Assembly: GCF_902459655.1 (NCBI RefSeq)
Contig: NZ_CABPSB010000007.1
Span: 124,001-188,000 of the forward strand
Source of the DNA: Pandoraea anhela
GTDB lineage: Bacteria; Pseudomonadota; Gammaproteobacteria; Burkholderiales; Burkholderiaceae
Reading direction: 5' to 3'
Length of the DNA stretch: 64,000 nt
Shown: positions 5,123 through 53,930 of the stretch, piece after piece
Numbering within the stretch: position 1 is the stretch's first letter
Layout of the letters: every line of letters begins with the position of its first letter
Translations under genes and position numbers: made by a program
Notes under the pieces: generated by a model
The model's input: the letters and a program-made list of their open reading frames with translations, nothing else
Database searches by the model: none
What the model was told of the DNA's origin: nothing

Positions 5123-5332
5123 TCAGTCTTCCAGACGCATGCCGACCTTCAGCGTGACTTGCCAGTGAGCGACCTTGCCGTCCTCGATATGGCCGCGCGT
5201 CTCCGTGATTTCGAACCAGTTCAGGTTGCGCAGTGTCTTGCTCGCGCGCTCGATGGCCCCTTTGACGGCGTCATCGATGGACTTGGTTGACGAGCCGGTC
5301 AGCTCGATTTGCTTGTACACGTGATTCGTCAT
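5123..5332 (-). CDS. Dodecin family flavin-binding protein
   Basis: A 69-residue protein with the dodecin pattern: [11 protein letters not shown] at the N-terminus, [17 protein letters not shown] as the single helix (about residues 17-33), [12 protein letters not shown] including the Trp that stacks on the flavin ring, and a C-terminal strand [12 protein letters not shown]. Dodecins form hollow dodecamers that store or buffer FMN, riboflavin or lumichrome. The start ATG at 5332 gives the standard dodecin length. It lies 46 bp downstream of the marR stop on the same strand and may share its transcript. Riboflavin genes occur elsewhere in the window but are not adjacent. Confidence 0.9.
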
Positions 5333-5378: not shown

Positions 5379-6023
5379 CTACCGAGGCCGCAAGTCGGTG
5401 AATTCCGACATGTCGTCGTCAGTGCCGTCGAGGTGCCGCGCGGCAGCGCCCGCGCCGTCGTTCCCGCCGTCGTTCCCGCCGTCGTTCCCGCAGTCGTTCG
5501 TGCAGGCGGAACGGGAGCCCTCAACGACACCGCCGGCCGGCTCCCGACGCAGCATCGCGGGCACCACCGTGTCGAGCGGCGTGGGCACGACGTTGCTGAG
5601 ATTACGTCGCACCTTTTGCAGCAGTTGCGTGAGCTGCACCGCCTCGAAAGCGGTCAGGCCGTGCAACGCCTCGTCGCGTACGTCGTCGGAGAGTTTGCGC
5701 GCGAGCTGCAACTGCGCGACGGCCGCACGCGTGACGAAAAGGCGTTCGATGCGGGCGTCGCGCGCGTCCGCACGGCGGCGAACCCAACCGGCCTCCTCCA
5801 TGCGCTCGAGCATGCGGGCAAGTGCCTGCGGCGGGGTTTCGAGGATATCCGCGAGCACCGTCTGGCTCACGCCGCGATTGACGCTGAGATAGGCGAGCAA
5901 GCGGCATTGGGCGCGCGACATCGGCAGTGTGCGCTGTGCGAACTGCTCGAAGCGGCGCCCGAACAGACGTTGAATGTCTGCTACGAGAAAGCCGAAACGT
6001 TGGGCGGAATCGGTCACTTTCAT
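5379..6023 (-). CDS. MarR family transcriptional regulator with a low-complexity C-terminal tail
   Basis: A 214-residue protein. Residues 1-140 have the MarR winged-helix fold: [26 protein letters not shown], the recognition region [21 protein letters not shown], and the wing [13 protein letters not shown]. MarR proteins are usually 140-160 residues; here a 70-residue Ala/Gly/Asp/Asn-rich tail follows, containing GGND repeats encoded by a 12-bp tandem repeat. The ATG at 6023 is chosen because a consensus promoter sits immediately upstream and would otherwise lie inside the gene; in-frame ATGs at 6032 and 6044 would add 3 or 7 residues. The promoter carries an inverted repeat, so autorepression is likely. 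Dodecin lies downstream; ligand unknown. Confidence 0.85.
5457..5504. repeat. 12-bp tandem repeat inside the marR 3' end
   Basis: Four direct copies of GTCGTTCCCGCC; the first two are identical, the third differs at its last base and the fourth at three positions. The unit is four codons (Gly-Gly-Asn-Asp on the minus strand), so copy-number change alters tail length without breaking the frame. Confidence 0.9.
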
Positions 6024-47671: not shown

Positions 47672-48094
47672 TCAGGCCTGCCGGCCGGTCGCAAATTCGT
47701 CGAGCACCTCGATGACCCGGTCGAACTCCAGGGACTTGTCGAAAAAATGCTGCACGCCCAGTTGCTGGCAGCGTTTGCGATACGTCGCGAGGGCGTAATT
47801 CGTCAGCACGATGGCCATGAGCTTTTCCAGCAGGCCCCGCTCGTGCAAATACGACAGCACGTCCATGCCGGAACCGCGCCGCAGCTGAATATCGACGATG
47901 ACCGCGTCGAAGGAATCGTTTTCCAGGGTGCGGACCGCGTCATCGGCCGTCTCCGCCACGCCTGTGACCTCCAGCATCCCGGTCGATCCGAGTGCTTCGG
48001 ACAGGCTCTCGCGAATCACCGCCGAATCTTCGATCAGCAGCACCTTGAGGGGCAAACGGGACCCCGTAAGCGTTGCCGCGTTCCCGGTTGACAT
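47672..48094 (-). CDS. Receiver-only response regulator (CheY-like)
   Basis: A 140-residue single receiver domain: the acidic pocket is IEDS (residues 21-24), the phospho-acceptor Asp68 in AVIVDIQL, the switch Thr98 region in AIVLTNYA, and the invariant Lys in FFDKSLEF. No output domain. The start is ATG 48094 with GAGG 5 nt upstream. It lies 13 bp downstream of a NarL-type regulator on the same strand and is probably co-transcribed, so the two may be phosphorylated by the same kinase, most simply the CHASE3 kinase at 50284. Confidence 0.92.
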   Translation of the reverse strand: MSTGNAATLTGSRLPLKVLLIEDSAVIRESLSEALGSTGMLEVTGVAETADDAVRTLENDSFDAVIVDIQLRRGSGMDVLSYLHERGLLEKLMAIVLTNYALATYRKRCQQLGVQHFFDKSLEFDRVIEVLDEFATGRQA

Positions 48095-48107
48095 GACAGC
48101 CTCTCTC

Positions 48108-48749
48108 TCAACTGATCAAACCGTTCTTGAGCGCATACAGCGTCAGATCGGCATTGGTTTTCAAACGCATCTTTTCCAGCACCCGCGCGCGATACGTGCT
48201 CACGGTTTTCACCGACAGATGCAACTCGTCGGCGATTTCGGTCGGCGTGCGCCCCTGCGCGAGCTTGCAGAACACCTGAAACTCGCGCTCCGAGAGCTGC
48301 TCGTGCATCGGTTCGTCAACGGGCTTGTCGAGCTTTTGCGCGAGCAGATCCGCCGTCACTTCGCTCACGTAGCGATGACCGCGCGCCACCGTGCGGATCG
48401 CCCGGATGATCTCCTCGGGCGCCGCATCCTTCATCAGATAGCCGTCCGCCCCGGCGCGCAGCAGATTCACCGCGTATTGCGCCTCCGGATAGGTCGACAA
48501 GAACAAGACACCTTGCTCGGGCCGCAACTGCTTGATCACGCGCAAGGTGTCGATACCGTTCTTGTCAGGCATGGCGATATCCAGCAGCACGACATCGAAT
48601 TCGGCGTCTCGCACGGCACGAATCACTTCGTCTCCGCTCGCGGCCTCGCCCAGCACTTCCATATCCGACTCGTCGGCGATGAATTGCTTGAAACCGGTAC
48701 GAACGATGGCGTGATCGTCGGCAATCAGAATTTTTATTGTCAGTGACAT
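48108..48749 (-). CDS. NarL/LuxR family two-component response regulator
   Basis: A 213-residue regulator. The receiver (residues 3-120) has the acidic pair Asp11-Asp12, phospho-acceptor Asp57 (VVLLDIAMPDKNG) and Lys106-region YLMKDAAPEEI. The LuxR helix-turn-helix is at 145-210 (QLSEREFQVFCKLAQGRTPTEIADELHLSVKTVSTYRARVLEKMRL). The start is ATG 48749. It is followed by the receiver-only gene. The HisKA_3-type kinase needed by this class is encoded 1.5 kb away on the other strand. Confidence 0.95.
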   Translation of the reverse strand: MSLTIKILIADDHAIVRTGFKQFIADESDMEVLGEAASGDEVIRAVRDAEFDVVLLDIAMPDKNGIDTLRVIKQLRPEQGVLFLSTYPEAQYAVNLLRAGADGYLMKDAAPEEIIRAIRTVARGHRYVSEVTADLLAQKLDKPVDEPMHEQLSEREFQVFCKLAQGRTPTEIADELHLSVKTVSTYRARVLEKMRLKTNADLTLYALKNGLIS

Positions 48750-48819
48750 CTAAGCTCCAGAGACTGTCCCCGTCGGCCTCATGGCCGCGCTCGAGCGACA
48801 TGGGCGCGCGCCGTGCCCG

Positions 48820-49428
48820 TCATTCCCGGTCGAGCAGATCTCGCATATCGTCGGCATGCTCCTCCTCGACGGCGAGGATTTCTTCGAGCATGCGACGCGT
48901 TGTGGTATCCCGGTCGCCCAAATAATGAATCATCTCGCGGTAACTCTCAATCGCAATACGCTCAGCGACGAGATTTTCCCGGATCATGTCCCGCAAGGTG
49001 CTACAACTGACGTATTCCGCGTGGCTGCGGGCGGACAGACTGTCCGGGGAAAAGTCCGGCTCGCCGCCCAGTTGCACGATACGCGCTGCGATGCGATCCG
49101 CGTGATCCTGCTCTTGCGCCGCGTGCTCGGCGAATTCGGCCGCTACAGGCTCGGCGTGGATACCCGTGGCCATGAAGTGGTGACGTTTGTAACGCAGCAC
49201 GCACACCAGTTCCGTCGCGAGCGCGTCGTTGAGCATGTGCACTACGGCGTCGCGGTCGGCACGATAGTCCTCGGTGACGGCGCCTTCGTCGAGGTGCTCA
49301 CGGGCACGCTCGCGCAGGGCGCGAACGTCGATTTCGAATTCATCACCCGCGTGCTGGCTGTGACCATTACCCGTCATCGCGAGCTTGGCGGGCTTGGCGT
49401 GTAGCTTGGCTTGCTTGGCAGTATGCAT
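48820..49428 (-). CDS. Ferritin-like (bacterioferritin-type) protein
   Basis: A 202-residue protein. After a Lys/His-rich N-terminus (residues 1-60) comes a four-helix ferritin-like domain: DAVVHMLNDALATELVCVLRYKRHHFMATG, AAEFAEHAAQEQDHADRIAARIVQLGGEPDF, RENLVAERIAIESYREMIHYLG, and RRMLEEILAVEEEHADDMRDLLDRE. The Glu and ExxH residues needed for a di-iron site are present in each pair of helices, so iron oxidation/storage or peroxide detoxification is likely. AGGAGG lies 8 nt before ATG 49428. Located between the response regulators and two DUF1328 genes. Confidence 0.88.
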   Translation of the reverse strand: MHTAKQAKLHAKPAKLAMTGNGHSQHAGDEFEIDVRALRERAREHLDEGAVTEDYRADRDAVVHMLNDALATELVCVLRYKRHHFMATGIHAEPVAAEFAEHAAQEQDHADRIAARIVQLGGEPDFSPDSLSARSHAEYVSCSTLRDMIRENLVAERIAIESYREMIHYLGDRDTTTRRMLEEILAVEEEHADDMRDLLDRE

Positions 49429-49580
49429 GAGCGAATCCTCCTGTAGCGGTTGAGTGCGTGTGGCAGGGTTTCGGGGCATCAGAAAACGGGGGATGGCGAC
49501 AGCGGACAGACGACGGCGCCGGCTACGGTAAAGGGCGCGACAGAGGGCAGCTCATGCCGCCCCCCGGGCCATGGCGCTAT

Positions 49581-49742
49581 CTATCGTCGGACGACCCCAA
49601 AGAGCAGCGTGACCAGGAAGATCACCAGGAAGATGAAGAACAGGATCTTCGCGATCTCGGCGGCACCGGCAGCGATTCCCGTAAAGCCGAAAACCGCGGC
49701 GATCAACGCGATCACGAAAAAAACGACGGCATAGTGAAGCAT
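49581..49742 (-). CDS. DUF1328 small membrane protein, copy 1
   Basis: A 53-residue protein with two hydrophobic helices: [20 protein letters not shown], then the family signature [22 protein letters not shown]. It matches the DUF1328/YtjA family of small inner-membrane proteins. AAGGAGG sits 6 nt before the ATG at 49742. A similar gene lies 24 bp upstream on the same strand, so the pair probably arose by duplication and shares a transcript. Function unknown; family members are often stress-induced. Confidence 0.9.
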
Positions 49743-49766
49743 CGCAACCTCCTTGAATGACGATGG

Positions 49767-49943
49767 CTAATCGACGATCTTCTTGGCGACGGTCAGTCCA
49801 AGCAGCAGGAAGATCACGAACAGGACCAGGAACAGAACGAACAGAATCTTCGCGATCCCGGCGGCGCCGGCGGCGATCCCGGTGAACCCCAACAGACCGG
49901 CCACGATCGAGATCAGTGCGAACAACAAAGCCCACTTCAGCAT
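49767..49943 (-). CDS. DUF1328 small membrane protein, copy 2
   Basis: A 58-residue paralogue of the neighbouring gene: [20 protein letters not shown], then [22 protein letters not shown], ending [16 protein letters not shown] is 6 nt before the ATG at 49943. It is the first of the two-gene DUF1328 unit. The conserved Glu of copy 1 (GAAEIAKIL) is Gly here. Confidence 0.9.
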
Positions 49944-50283
49944 GGCGTTCTCCTTGTTTATTGCCTCGTATCCCGGAGACTTTTCCGGCTCCCCGTGGTC
50001 GGCTCGAACCGGGGGTCAGTAACTCCCTGGCAATGGGCAAACCCTGGGGCGCTGAATGCATAGTAGAAAAACGCCGCCGACGGGACTGCCCGCGCGGCGC
50101 TGTTTTTTGCGTAGGAATTGACTGACAAATGCCCGCATCCTGCGGTTTTCGCCGTATGATCAAAGCACCTGACGTCGCGTGATGCACGTCGAGATATGCC
50201 GGCGCACGCCACTCAACGCCATTTCACCGGCGATACACACCGTTCGCCGCCAGTCACCGCCATCCAAGGCCGCCATTTCCCCC
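49944..50283. other. 340-bp divergent gap between the DUF1328 genes and the sensor kinase
   Basis: No gene seen. A hairpin with CGCCGC (50072-50077) and GCGGCG (50094-50099) arms is flanked by A5 on the left and T6 (50103-50108) on the right, so it looks like a terminator on both strands although no gene ends here; it may mark a small RNA or protect divergent transcription. TATGAT at 50155 is a possible -10 box for the kinase gene. Confidence 0.5.
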
Positions 50284-51798
50284 ATGCCCCGATTCACGTC
50301 CTGGTTACGTCGCAGAAGCTGGATCATCGCCATGATCGCCGCGATCGTCATCACGGTCGGCAGCCTGATCGGGCTGGAATCGGCGCACCGCCGTCTCGCG
50401 TCGACCTACGAGAGCGCGCTGCAAAGCATGATGGCCGCCAACGAACTCAACGAGATCATTGCGCGCACCTCGACCGTGGTGGCCAGTCAGCGCGGCTACC
50501 TGCTTACGAACAACCCGGCCTATCTCGATCCGTATCTGTCGGCGGTGCGGCGCATCCGCGACCTCTCGGCGCTCATCATTCAGCACTATCAGGACGTGAA
50601 AGACGATCAGGCGACACAGGAGTTCGCGCGCGTCATGAAAGTGTTCTCCCAGCGCATCACGGCGATGGACACGGCGCGCTCGGCCGTCACGCAGGGCGAG
50701 ATGTCGCTGGAGGAAGCGCTCTCCCCGTCCAATCTCGGTATCGGCACGATGGAGCCCGTGCAGACCGGCATCACCGATCTTTACAACCGCGAGCTGGCGC
50801 GTGCGCGTACGGCGCAGGACGACGGACGCTTCGATCAGGCGATCTCGGCCATCAGCGCCGGCGCGCTCTCGGTGCTCACGATTCTGCTGTTCGTCATGCT
50901 CTTCCGCACGCTGGGCAAGCAGATGCGTCAGGAGCAACTCGCACGCGACCAGTTGCGCGAACAGCAGGCGCATCTGGACCGGCTCGTGCGCGAGCGCACC
51001 GAACAACTCGACGAACTGGCCACGCACTTGCAGAACGTGAGCGAGGACGAGAAAACGCGACTGTCGCGCGAACTGCATGACGAACTCGGCGCCATTCTGA
51101 CCGCGTGCAAAATGGACGTGACGTGGGCGCATCACAAGCTGCGCAACGCCGATCCGGTCATTGCCGAAAAGCTCGCGCGCGCACAACGCAATCTCGACTC
51201 GGGCATTCAGACGAAGCGCCGCATCATCGAGAATCTGCGCCCGACGGTGCTCATCAACTTTGGCCTCGTCACCGCACTGCGCTCGCTCGCCGAAGAGACC
51301 GCCGACCAACAGCACTGGCAACTCGATCTCGATCTGCCGGAAGAAGACTTTGCATTGCCGGAATCGACGGCCATCGTGCTGTTTCGCGTCGCCCAGGAGG
51401 CCCTGACGAACGCGGGCAAGTACGCGCGCGCGACGACGGTGCGCGTGGCGCTGGCCTGCGACGATCAGCGCGTGCGGCTCGAAGTGATCGATAACGGCAT
51501 CGGCCTCACGCGCGACCAGTTCAACAAACCCAAGACGCACGGTCTGTTCGGCATGCGCCAGCGCGTATCCGCCAAGGGAGGACGCATCGACATCCACTCC
51601 TTGCCGCAGCGCCTCGGCACCGAGATTCAGGTGGTGCTGCCGCTGTGCAATCCGGCGGATGCCCCCGAAATCGCCACGGAAGTCACCGAAAGCGCCGCGA
51701 CGCAATCGTCACTGGACACGCACGGCATCAAGGCCGACGCGTCGACATCATCCGCCTCGCAAGCCCAGCCCCCGCGCCCGCCGGTCGGAATGCACTGA
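50284..51798 (+). CDS. Sensor histidine kinase with CHASE3 domain (NarX/HisKA_3 type)
   Basis: About 504 residues. Membrane helix 1 is at 14-36 (WIIAMIAAIVITVGSLIGL), a CHASE3-like periplasmic domain at 40-180 (LNEIIARTSTVVASQRGYLLTNNPAYLDPYLSAVRRI), helix 2 at about 195-212, a coiled coil, then HisKA_3 (ENEKTRLSRELHDELG with the phospho-acceptor His) and HATPase_c (VAQEALTNAGKYA, DNGIGL, THGLFGMRQRV). The Ser/Pro-rich tail after 455 is disordered. The likely partner is the NarL-type regulator at 48108. The start is uncertain: ATG 50284 places the helix correctly, and the frame is open to 50179; no clear ribosome site. Confidence 0.9.
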   Translation: MPRFTSWLRRRSWIIAMIAAIVITVGSLIGLESAHRRLASTYESALQSMMAANELNEIIARTSTVVASQRGYLLTNNPAYLDPYLSAVRRIRDLSALIIQHYQDVKDDQATQEFARVMKVFSQRITAMDTARSAVTQGEMSLEEALSPSNLGIGTMEPVQTGITDLYNRELARARTAQDDGRFDQAISAISAGALSVLTILLFVMLFRTLGKQMRQEQLARDQLREQQAHLDRLVRERTEQLDELATHLQNVSEDEKTRLSRELHDELGAILTACKMDVTWAHHKLRNADPVIAEKLARAQRNLDSGIQTKRRIIENLRPTVLINFGLVTALRSLAEETADQQHWQLDLDLPEEDFALPESTAIVLFRVAQEALTNAGKYARATTVRVALACDDQRVRLEVIDNGIGLTRDQFNKPKTHGLFGMRQRVSAKGGRIDIHSLPQRLGTEIQVVLPLCNPADAPEIATEVTESAATQSSLDTHGIKADASTSSASQAQPPRPPVGMH

Positions 51799-51939
51799 CA
51801 GCGCAACCCGACTCCACCTACACCGCGACGAAAGCGCGGCTGACAGCGCGAACACTTCGCACTCCCTATCATGGAATCACCTGCCGCCGCCCCGACGGGC
51901 GCGGGGGCTGAACCCAACCCAACACGATAAGGAGTTGTC

Positions 51940-52146
51940 ATGAACTCGGATCTGATCAAGGGCAAGTGGAACCAACTCAAGGGCGAAGCGAAGAAGCAGT
52001 GGGGCAACCTGACCGATGACGATCTGCTGAAGATCGAAGGCAATCGAGACAAGTTCGTCGGTGTGATTCAGGAACGCTACGGCAAGGCCAAGGCCGACGC
52101 CGAACGCGAAGTCGACACCTGGAACAACCAGCACAAGCTCTGGTAA
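51940..52146 (+). CDS. CsbD family stress protein
   Basis: A 68-residue hydrophilic protein matching the CsbD family: MNSDLIKGKWNQLKGEAKKQWGNLTDDDLLKIEGNRDKFVGVIQERYGKAKADAEREVDTW, with the KGKWNQLKGE N-terminus and WGxLTDDD core. CsbD-like proteins (e.g. E. coli YjbJ) are induced by stress and stationary phase; molecular role unknown. AAGGAG is 7 nt before the ATG. Followed by other small stress/envelope genes on the same strand. Confidence 0.95.
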   Translation: MNSDLIKGKWNQLKGEAKKQWGNLTDDDLLKIEGNRDKFVGVIQERYGKAKADAEREVDTWNNQHKLW

Positions 52147-52296
52147 GCGGGCAACGCAGCGCCCGATGCGTGGTTTAGCGTCGTCACATTCACAACGTCG
52201 CTCACGCAGACCATGCTCGCCGGGAGGCGGGCTTGGTCTCCCCCTCGCGCGCCCTATGCGCCTCGAACAACATCCTCTCTCGAAGGAGACATCAAA

Positions 52297-52434
52297 ATGA
52301 AACGATTGATCGCCATCGCTCTGCTTTCGGGCTTCGCACTGGGCCTCGCAGGCTGCAACACCATCCACGGCGCGGGCAAGGACGTCGAGAAGGGCGGCGA
52401 AGCCATCCAGGGCGCCGCCGACCGCAACAAGTAA
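52297..52434 (+). CDS. Entericidin A/B family lipoprotein
   Basis: A 45-residue lipoprotein: signal peptide MKRLIAIALLSGFALGLAGC with lipobox LAGC, then the entericidin motif NTIHGAGKDVEKGGEAIQGAADRNK. In E. coli EcnA/EcnB form an osmotically regulated antidote/toxin lipoprotein pair. Only one copy is present here. GAAGGAG lies upstream of ATG 52297. Confidence 0.93.
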   Translation: MKRLIAIALLSGFALGLAGCNTIHGAGKDVEKGGEAIQGAADRNK

Positions 52435-52552
52435 TGCGACGCCACGCCGATACCCCCCCGGCGTGGCGCGCCGTTCCCCCGAATACACGAATCGCGGCGC
52501 CGCGGCGTCGCGCCTCATGCTCGCCACATCCCCAGCCAAGGAGGACTCTGAG

Positions 52553-53137
52553 ATGAACCATCGAATCGCCATGAACGTCCTGACCTGCGCCTGCATCGCG
52601 GCAGCCGGCATGCTGAGCACCACGGCAGCCAGCGCGGCCGATGCTGCCGCCAAGGATCGCTACGACGCCGCGCAGAAGGCTGCCGAAGCGGACTACAAGG
52701 CGGCCGCCGCGCGATGCGACGACATGAAGGACAACGCGAAGAAGATCTGCGTCGAGGATGCGAAGGGCAAGGAGAAGATCGCCAAGGCCAACGCAGAAGC
52801 CGACTACAAGCAAACGCCCAAGGCCCGCTACGACGCCGCCGTCGCCAAGGCCGACGCCGACTACAGCGTCGCCAAGCTGCGCTGCGACGACAAGAAGGGC
52901 AACGACAAGGATGTCTGCGTGAAGGACGCCGACGCCGCCAAGACGAAGGCCTACGGCGACGCCAAGGTCATGCGCACGAGCCGCGAGTCGTCGAAGGACA
53001 CCATGGCGGCACGCCAGGATGCCAACGCCGACGCCAACAAGGCCCAATACAAAGCCGCGATGGAGCGTTGCGACAGCCTGAGCGGCAACAGCAAGGACAA
53101 CTGCGTGGCCGAAGCCAAGACGCGTTACCACCAATAA
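52553..53137 (+). CDS. Periplasmic protein with three Cys-pair repeats
   Basis: A 194-residue protein, unnamed to my knowledge. Residues 1-29 are a signal peptide (CACIAAAGMLSTTAASA). The mature part is Lys/Ala/Asp-rich, probably helical, and carries three copies of a unit reading Y-K-x-A-x-x-R-C-D-(x)-G-N-x-K-D-x-C-V: Cys pairs at 55/66, 111/122 and 173/184, each C-x10-C, preceded by Tyr 7 residues earlier. Each pair could form a disulfide closing a helical hairpin. AAGGAGG lies 8 nt before ATG 52553. Its terminator is at 53220. It follows csbD and the entericidin-like gene. Confidence 0.85.
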   Translation: MNHRIAMNVLTCACIAAAGMLSTTAASAADAAAKDRYDAAQKAAEADYKAAAARCDDMKDNAKKICVEDAKGKEKIAKANAEADYKQTPKARYDAAVAKADADYSVAKLRCDDKKGNDKDVCVKDADAAKTKAYGDAKVMRTSRESSKDTMAARQDANADANKAQYKAAMERCDSLSGNSKDNCVAEAKTRYHQ

Positions 53138-53621
53138 CCCGAGTTATTTCCCAAAGAACGGCACCGGTTTCGCAGGGAGGAGAAGGCGTCTCACGCGAAT
53201 TTCGCTGAGCGTCGGCAACGGGCGAATGTCGCGCAAGTGGCATTCGCCCGCTGTTTTTGCGCGACATCCCGAGCGCGTGATGTAAATGAATGTAACAAGT
53301 GTCGCGCGCCGTCCGCGTATCCGTAGTGCCCGCGTCACCGCCCCATGTCAACCGATACCAGCGCAAAGCGTTGATTCTGCATAGAATAGTGGTCTGATAT
53401 ACACGTTTGGCGGCCGCTTTTCTACACCCGAACGTTCCTCATACCGGTCAAATGCGCATACTTTGCAACAATTGCGACGAGACCGCGTTTCGGAACTTCA
53501 GTAAAGTAAAAGCTAGGAAATCCGACGAATCAGGGTGCCGGCGGGCACCAGGCGCGTCGAACGGCATGGTGCCGTCCGGGCGCTGTCATCAGTACGCTGC
53601 CAAGTCCGCAGGAGAAATGTC
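53138..53621. other. 484-bp gap after the Cys-repeat gene
   Basis: No gene seen. It holds the terminator at 53220-53258, then an AT-richer stretch with GTAACAAGTG near 53295 and a GGAACTT motif at about 53495 that resembles an extracytoplasmic sigma -35 box, but no correctly spaced -10 follows. The PXPV gene ribosome site AGGAG is at the right end. Confidence 0.5.
53220..53258 (+). terminator. Intrinsic terminator after the Cys-repeat gene
   Basis: Arms GGGCGAATG/CATTCGCCC with a 12-nt loop, followed after GCTG by five T residues, 82 bp after the stop codon. Confidence 0.85.
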
Positions 53622-53930
53622 ATGAAAACCAAGTTTGCCGCCCTTGCCATCGCCGGGGTCGCGCTCGCCGCAGGTGCGGTCGGGACGGCGCAAGCGCACG
53701 TCTCGGTCGGGATCGGCATCGGCGTGCCGCTGATCGCGCCCGCGCCGGTCTATGCGCCGGCACCGGTCTACGTGGCACCGCCTCCGCCGGTCTACGTCGC
53801 GCCGCCGCCCCCCGTCTACGTCGCGCCGGCCCCCGTCTACTATGGCCCGCCGCCGGTGTATTACGGTCGTCCGTATGGCGGCTATTACGGTCGCGGTTAC
53901 TGGCGTCATGGCCGCTGGTACGGTTATTGA
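53622..53930 (+). CDS. PXPV-repeat exported protein
   Basis: A 102-residue protein. Signal peptide at residues 1-25 (LAIAGVALAAGAVGTAQA), then a Pro/Val/Tyr-rich array with six or more APAPVY / PPPPVY units (about residues 38-78), and a Gly/Tyr/Arg-rich end (YGGYYGRGYWRHGRWYGY). This is the PXPV-repeat family found in Burkholderiaceae; cell-envelope location likely, function unknown. AGGAG lies 7 nt before ATG 53622. Confidence 0.88.
   Translation: MKTKFAALAIAGVALAAGAVGTAQAHVSVGIGIGVPLIAPAPVYAPAPVYVAPPPPVYVAPPPPVYVAPAPVYYGPPPVYYGRPYGGYYGRGYWRHGRWYGY

Follow-up and report, generated by a model that had tools for sequence, protein, structure and literature searches.

A 64-kb window from Pandoraea anhela (the whole stretch of DNA that was analysed, 64,000 nucleotides of contig NZ_CABPSB010000007.1) contains, at positions 47672-53930, a ten-gene locus encoding a CHASE3 membrane histidine kinase, a NarL/FixJ-type response regulator, a receiver-only protein and small proteins of the DUF1328, CsbD and entericidin families. 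We propose that a dedicated two-component stress system of Burkholderiales is encoded here, and from the sequence evidence we put the probability of this reading at roughly 0.7. Its regulator is predicted to act through an 18-bp dyad box, approximately YGTMGGANTNNNCYGACA, with the half-site TGTMGGA. An earlier, sequence-only reading of the same DNA had seen in the locus a regulon assembled around its own two-component system. That proposal gains from the conserved synteny and from a box shared by both arms of the locus and by distant stress genes (otsB, dodecin); the support does not extend to the entericidin, Cys-repeat and PXPV genes, for which the window shows no separate box.

The dyad box

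The upstream regions of every gene of the locus were aligned across 27 Pandoraea loci, the host window included. A conserved block was found in the divergent promoter between the kinase gene and the first DUF1328 gene, and the same dyad is present at the kinase system in other genera. The scoring matrix rests on 44 sites at non-Pandoraea loci, of which 29 remained after de-duplication; these had themselves been picked out with the pattern. It took the place of an earlier matrix derived from symmetrised seeds, which was too permissive and gave many matches in coding regions. Just three positions in the window score 13 or more, namely those of the three boxes in Table 1; with 200 column-permuted matrices run on the same 64 kb, positions at 14 averaged 0.41 and never exceeded 6. 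A further control with random 300-mers, about 6 to 7% of which passed the threshold, was contaminated, since its pool held target loci and thus true sites, and it is not relied on here.

Among the genus loci, a matrix site of at least 14 lies upstream of the kinase gene in 27 of 27 cases, of the first DUF1328 gene in 26 of 26 (the same, shared site) and of csbD in 26 of 26. Eight further genes, in the locus or at its edge, have only 2 such sites in 200 upstream regions: narL 1/27, Cys-repeat 1/23, second DUF1328 0/26, ferritin-like 0/20, receiver-only 0/26, entericidin 0/25, PXPV 0/27 and the neighbouring MCP gene 0/26. Right behind the csbD box, at 51801-51825, there is a second conserved block containing CCTACA, which could be a degenerate tandem site.

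Outside the genus, 76 non-Pandoraea loci were searched from -3000 to +4200 around the start of the kinase gene for a stricter pattern, YGTAGGANTNNNCYGACA, with at most one mismatch allowed. It gave 44 matches in 37 of these loci, compared with a mean of 0.45 and a maximum of 6 in 200 permutations and none for the backward pattern; these loci are related to each other, and relatives of some of the same genera had supplied a few of the initial seeds. Exact matches numbered 10 in the 76 loci and 0 in the control. When 200 order-level genomes were searched for exact matches to this pattern, 11 genomes had one, and 6 of the 11 sites are located at the kinase system (host included). With a wider pattern, exact matches in the 32 genus genomes amount to 61, compared with 2 for the backward control. 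They are distributed over the kinase promoter (31), csbD (11), a TetR/lipoprotein operon (8, beside it), DUF883 genes (5, before them) and other places (6). The last six, two of them in a HAD-family coding region, two inside other coding sequence, one at a coding start and one in the gap before another gene, are taken as chance matches.

Conservation of the locus

A kinase orthologue was found in 31 of the 32 Pandoraea genomes, the host counted. In the reduced genome G003 (1.2 Mb) none was found, the best match (E=7e-24) covering the catalytic part only. Twenty-nine loci from the other 30 genomes were compared, the locus of G023, on a short contig, being excluded. The kinase, the NarL-type regulator and the receiver-only protein occur together in all 29, accompanied by DUF1328 in 28, CsbD in 28 and entericidin in 27. 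The ferritin-like, Cys-repeat and PXPV genes each keep more than 60% of their length in 22 of 29 loci; in the seven loci where the ferritin-like gene is absent or fragmentary, the signalling genes are kept.

Named bacterial genomes were then scanned with a seven-sequence kinase alignment, and the best 80 of at least 565 confirmed loci were used. They come mostly from Burkholderiales, with a few other Betaproteobacteria and some metagenome bins with the label Gammaproteobacteria or Proteobacteria. At most about 9 kb away from the kinase gene, the regulator (at least 48% identity) is present in 73 of the 80 loci and the receiver-only protein (at least 35%) in 70, followed by DUF1328 (59), ferritin-like (32), entericidin (21), CsbD (6), Cys-repeat (6) and PXPV (4). 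Where the flank was sufficient, regulator and receiver-only protein accompany the kinase in 58 of 67 loci, and DUF1328 joins them in 47; with Pandoraea omitted, all three are there in 44 of 63 full-flank loci. Gene order and strand vary among groups. A leftward run DUF1328-ferritin-narL-receiver is seen in Paraburkholderia, Caballeronia and Pandoraea; narL and the receiver gene are on the far side of the kinase in Cupriavidus and Ralstonia, and Acidovorax, Polaromonas and Ramlibacter commonly have the order receiver, narL, kinase, DUF1328. Given these neighbour counts and the reshuffled order, the conserved core consists of the kinase, the regulator, the receiver-only protein and DUF1328, with ferritin and entericidin as frequent companions, while CsbD, Cys-repeat, PXPV and MCP near the kinase are mainly a Pandoraea addition. 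Absence of synteny in relatives, which the sequence-only reading had named as evidence against itself, is not what we found: the synteny extends far beyond the genus.

DUF1328 is not confined to the kinase system, being present in 38 of 61 related genomes. The only two DUF1328 matches of the host genome are the pair at the kinase locus, and nearly all of the 59 copies in 30 genus genomes are at the kinase; the exceptions are one copy each elsewhere in G024 and G025 and one at a contig end in G023. Three of eight non-genus carriers (G033, G035, G058) have a copy at the kinase locus. Homologues of the Cys-repeat protein in other groups were seen near CsbD (L066, L171) and near the kinase (L172), and it is possible that this association with CsbD or the kinase recurs outside the genus.

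Predicted distant targets

In the 6.05-Mb host genome, the box pattern with at most two mismatches gave 91 matches, compared with 25 for the backward control, and all 91 were scored with the matrix. Ten score 17 or more, and six of these precede stress-type genes. Besides the three boxes of Table 1, they are found before genes for a glycine-zipper lipoprotein (C32:40796, score 21.2), for the trehalose-phosphate phosphatase OtsB (C1:323990, 19.1, about 200 bp upstream) and for a DUF883 protein (C15:62650, 18.9). A degenerate copy of the box (11.9) stands before the place of the lipoprotein operon in the host genome.

Across the genus, sites of at least 14 were found at otsB in 26 of 30 loci (two more score 13.6), at the glycine-zipper gene in 27 of 27 scored among 28 loci taken, and at DUF883 in 14 of 30. 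The dodecin box is kept in 21 of 28 loci, in 20 of them at -76 to -78 (24-column matrix, threshold 12). The letters of the otsB box vary between species with both half-sites kept (TGTAGGCGTCGTCCGACA and TGTGGGATATCGCTGACA are two examples), a pattern that speaks for selection on the dyad. In L077:1501-2569 (G000:C1) the otsB box lies in the gap between otsB and a membrane protein gene, PepSY-type as judged by eye only.

Twelve named relatives searched genome-wide for exact matches to the wider pattern gave 15 matches in 6 genomes, compared with 2 in the control. Four of the 15 are at the kinase locus and three are before a lipoprotein gene. The latter three, from Cupriavidus genomes (L363, L367, L374), are near-symmetric TGTCGGA-N4-TCCGACA sites before a gene for a CGGGDDGIDDR-type lipoprotein, and they may be further targets or the site of another regulator. 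The distant regulon as predicted here is that of the genus Pandoraea only.

Signalling proteins and proposed mechanism

The regulator is a NarL/FixJ response regulator with Response_reg and GerE/LuxR helix-turn-helix domains over cut-off; D11, D12, D57 and K107 are conserved in 6 of 6 aligned sequences. In the same six, S179, V180, K181, T182, T185, Y186 and R187 of the helix-turn-helix are invariant, as would be expected if the box is conserved. Among solved chains, VraR, DevR and NarL come nearest to the regulator, followed by ChrA and EvgA. The kinase has CHASE3, HisKA_3 and HATPase_c domains over cut-off, and its phospho-accepting H265 lies within the stretch RELHDELG, invariant in 7 of 7 aligned sequences. 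The receiver-only protein has the acidic pair (E22, D23), acceptor aspartate (D68), threonine (T98) and lysine (K120) of a single-domain response regulator, and because these residues are invariant in seven aligned sequences it should be phosphorylatable.

The divergent box has its centre about 165 bp upstream of the start of the kinase gene, with a conserved -10-like hexamer on either side. If these hexamers are real, the centre would lie at about -47 relative to the kinase and about -65 relative to DUF1328, which would be usual places for an activator. The leftward intergenic gaps of 24, 152, 70 and 13 bp suggest that DUF1328-DUF1328-ferritin-narL-receiver may form one transcript.

We propose the following mechanism. 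The CHASE3 sensor, presumably periplasmic, would detect an envelope or osmotic signal, and the kinase would autophosphorylate on H265 in its HisKA_3 core and pass the phosphate to D57 of the regulator. Phosphorylated regulator dimers would then bind the dyad box. At the divergent promoter the box would drive the kinase gene in one direction and the leftward run in the other, giving positive feedback. The second box would drive csbD and probably also the entericidin-like and Cys-repeat genes behind it, and the distant boxes would drive dodecin, the glycine-zipper lipoprotein, otsB (and with it trehalose synthesis) and DUF883, as well as the lipoprotein operon in part of the genus. The receiver-only protein is probably phosphorylated by the same kinase and may act as a sink or as a second output. 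In the matrix scan of the window the entericidin, Cys-repeat, PXPV and neighbouring MCP genes have no box of their own; at best they could be co-transcribed. It is doubtful whether the PXPV gene, which has its own conserved upstream region, belongs to the system.

Gene content of the locus

Open reading frame calling with direct reading of the sequence recovered all ten genes that had been claimed for the locus, and eight of them are above the curated cut-offs of Pfam in scans with Pfam and NCBIfam profiles (Table 1). The strong ribosome sites ascribed to the small genes can be read directly in the sequence as AGGAG-type sites. The two DUF1328 proteins (PF07043) score 58.4 and 53.2 bits against a cut-off of 27, the CsbD protein 73.1 against 40, and the entericidin-family protein 34.6 against 23.3. 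The latter stays under the NCBIfam equivalogs for entericidin A (30.4 vs 86) and entericidin B (33.8 vs 94). Two of the ten family labels found no such support: the protein at 53622-53930 is below the cut-off of the PXPV repeat (PF12778; 12.6 bits vs 23.1, E=0.14), and the Cys-repeat protein has no Pfam or NCBIfam match at E≤1.

Table 1. Genes, boxes and putative promoter elements discussed in the text (window positions)
Feature	Position	Strand	Basis
Dyad box CGTAGGAATTGACTGACA, divergent kinase/DUF1328 promoter, score 23.7	50110..50127	+	Footprint, matrix
Dyad box GGTCGGAATGCACTGACA (score 17.9), upstream of csbD and overlapping the stop codon of the kinase gene	51783..51800	+	Pattern, matrix
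Dyad box TGTCGGAATTCACCGACT (score 17.2), 60 bp upstream of the start codon of dodecin	5393..5410	-	Pattern, matrix
Putative -10-like hexamer TACTAT, leftward promoter	50060..50065	-	Genus footprint
Putative -10-like hexamer TATGAT, kinase promoter	50154..50159	+	Genus footprint
Receiver-only protein, 140 aa	47672..48094	-	Pfam Response_reg (66.7 bits); alignment
NarL/FixJ-type response regulator	48108..48749	-	Pfam Response_reg and GerE; alignment; nearest solved chains
Ferritin-like protein	48820..49428	-	PF00210
DUF1328 small membrane protein, second copy	49581..49742	-	Pfam
DUF1328 small membrane protein, first copy, opening the leftward arm	49767..49943	-	Pfam
Membrane histidine kinase, CHASE3-HisKA_3, 504 aa	50284..51798	+	Pfam CHASE3, HisKA_3, HATPase_c; alignment
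CsbD-family protein	51940..52146	+	Pfam PF05532
Entericidin-family small lipoprotein, no own box	52297..52434	+	Pfam PF08085; box scan
Cys-repeat exported protein, family-less, no own box in window	52553..53137	+	Pfam/NCBIfam scans; box scan
Pro/Val-rich PXPV-like exported protein, no box, doubtful member	53622..53930	+	Sub-cut-off Pfam; footprint; box scan
Dodecin, predicted distant regulon member	5126..5332	-	Pfam PF07311 (108 bits); box 45 kb from kinase

Alternative explanations and comparison with known systems

Several observations weigh against a dedicated system with its own regulon. First, the genus loci and the named loci are mutually related, and their counts are not independent events. 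Second, 39 of the 76 non-Pandoraea kinase loci have no box match at up to one mismatch, and 6 of the 12 named relatives have no exact match. Third, coding regions hold four of the ten host matches scoring 17 or more (C5:151890, C14:66810 at 17.5, C3:161777, C11:158120), which are taken as chance, and at least three of the 15 matches in the named relatives. Fourth, the box falls below 14 at DUF883 in 16 of 30 loci and at otsB in 4 of 30 (including the two at 13.6), and at dodecin none was found in 7 of 28 loci. Fifth, DUF1328 is encoded away from the kinase locus in 5 of 8 non-genus carriers (G041, G044, G046, G051, G057). Finally, the assignment of the box to the local regulator rests on their co-localisation, and another regulator of the NarL family could own it.

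Among the competing explanations, the one that survives best is still unlikely: the locus may be a general-stress island mainly under RpoS, with the control of the two-component system limited to its own genes and DUF1328 and the other boxes weak or belonging to another regulator. The Salmonella sigma-S regulon includes YtjA (DUF1328) and YjbJ (CsbD), with EcnB and OsmB among its characterised small proteins (PMC5437024), so the small-protein families of the locus have sigma-S-dependent members there, and the enterobacterial RpoS regulon resembles the predicted targets in these families. This likeness also counts in favour of the proposed two-component stress system. The lack of a box before entericidin or PXPV in any genus locus, its presence before Cys-repeat in only 1 of 23 and the separate upstream conservation of PXPV are consistent with this. 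However, the csbD box is present in every genus locus scored, the otsB, glycine-zipper and dodecin genes mostly retain theirs, and the otsB box changes its letters and keeps its half-sites, which points to selection on the dyad. Unlike the enterobacterial regulon, control here is predicted to pass through the box of a two-component regulator and not only through a sigma factor.

It is rather improbable that some other NarL-family regulator, such as one like GacA/UvrY, uses the box and that the local regulator serves other targets. UvrY binds an 18-nt inverted repeat, TGTAAGNNNNNNCTTACA, and its strongest targets are the small RNAs csrB/C (PMC4682653). The box shares length and dyad form with this site, and the best NCBIfam match of the local regulator is UvrY/SirA/GacA; it scores 171.9 bits, below the cut-off of 280 for that equivalog (NF007018). 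BarA-UvrY/GacS-GacA thus resembles the present system in regulator type and dyad length, but the half-site here is TGTMGGA rather than the TGTAAG given for UvrY, the kinase (CHASE3-HisKA_3-HATPase) has no receiver domain, and the predicted targets are stress proteins instead of small RNAs. Against a different owner, the box tracks the gene cluster through rearrangements in several families: it is found before the receiver-only gene or DUF1328 where the order is receiver-narL-kinase-DUF1328, and in the narL-receiver gap in two other genomes.

A conserved neighbourhood that reflects lineage history, with the box as a by-product, could account for the variable composition (of 67 full-flank loci, CsbD and Cys-repeat each neighbour the kinase in only 5), but it is very improbable, as the kinase, regulator, receiver-only and DUF1328 genes mostly stay together through reshuffled order and strand and the box enrichment is far over that of permuted controls.

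The two-component system proposed here can also be compared with two other stress responses. VraSR and LiaSR are envelope stress systems of Gram-positive bacteria. They likewise have a NarL-type regulator, and the nearest solved chains to ours include VraR; they differ in targets and in lacking the CHASE3 sensor seen here, and the catalytic part of our kinase matches the NCBIfam LiaS model at 77.9 bits against a cut-off of 450. The alphaproteobacterial EcfG/PhyR general stress response likewise depends on a kinase together with a receiver-bearing protein; the regulator described here carries its own DNA-binding domain. No PhyR-, NepR- or EcfG-like gene is among the ten by Pfam, the rest of the genome not having been searched for them. 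The likeness extends to the targets, since csbD and ecnAB are under EcfG in Sphingopyxis (PMC7083833).

Implications

A literature search, covering little of the subscription journals, found no description of the present system in titles or opening lines of abstracts. The locus points to no new class of machinery; the novelty lies in a widely conserved system that combines a readable box and a predicted regulon with a receiver-only partner. Small stress proteins of the DUF1328, CsbD, entericidin-like and glycine-zipper kinds are widespread, and their functions are mostly unknown. Linking them, along with dodecin and otsB, to a single kinase, a single regulator and a readable box opens their control to direct tests, and the box can serve for regulon prediction in further member genomes. 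Tentatively, and at slightly less than even odds, Burkholderiales may run part of their general or osmotic stress response through a two-component switch made up of a CHASE3 kinase, a NarL-type regulator and a receiver-only partner, which would control trehalose synthesis and small proteins assigned to RpoS in enterics and partly to EcfG in Alphaproteobacteria. This would add a third way of controlling the same output, in which the receiver-only protein forms a built-in second branch.

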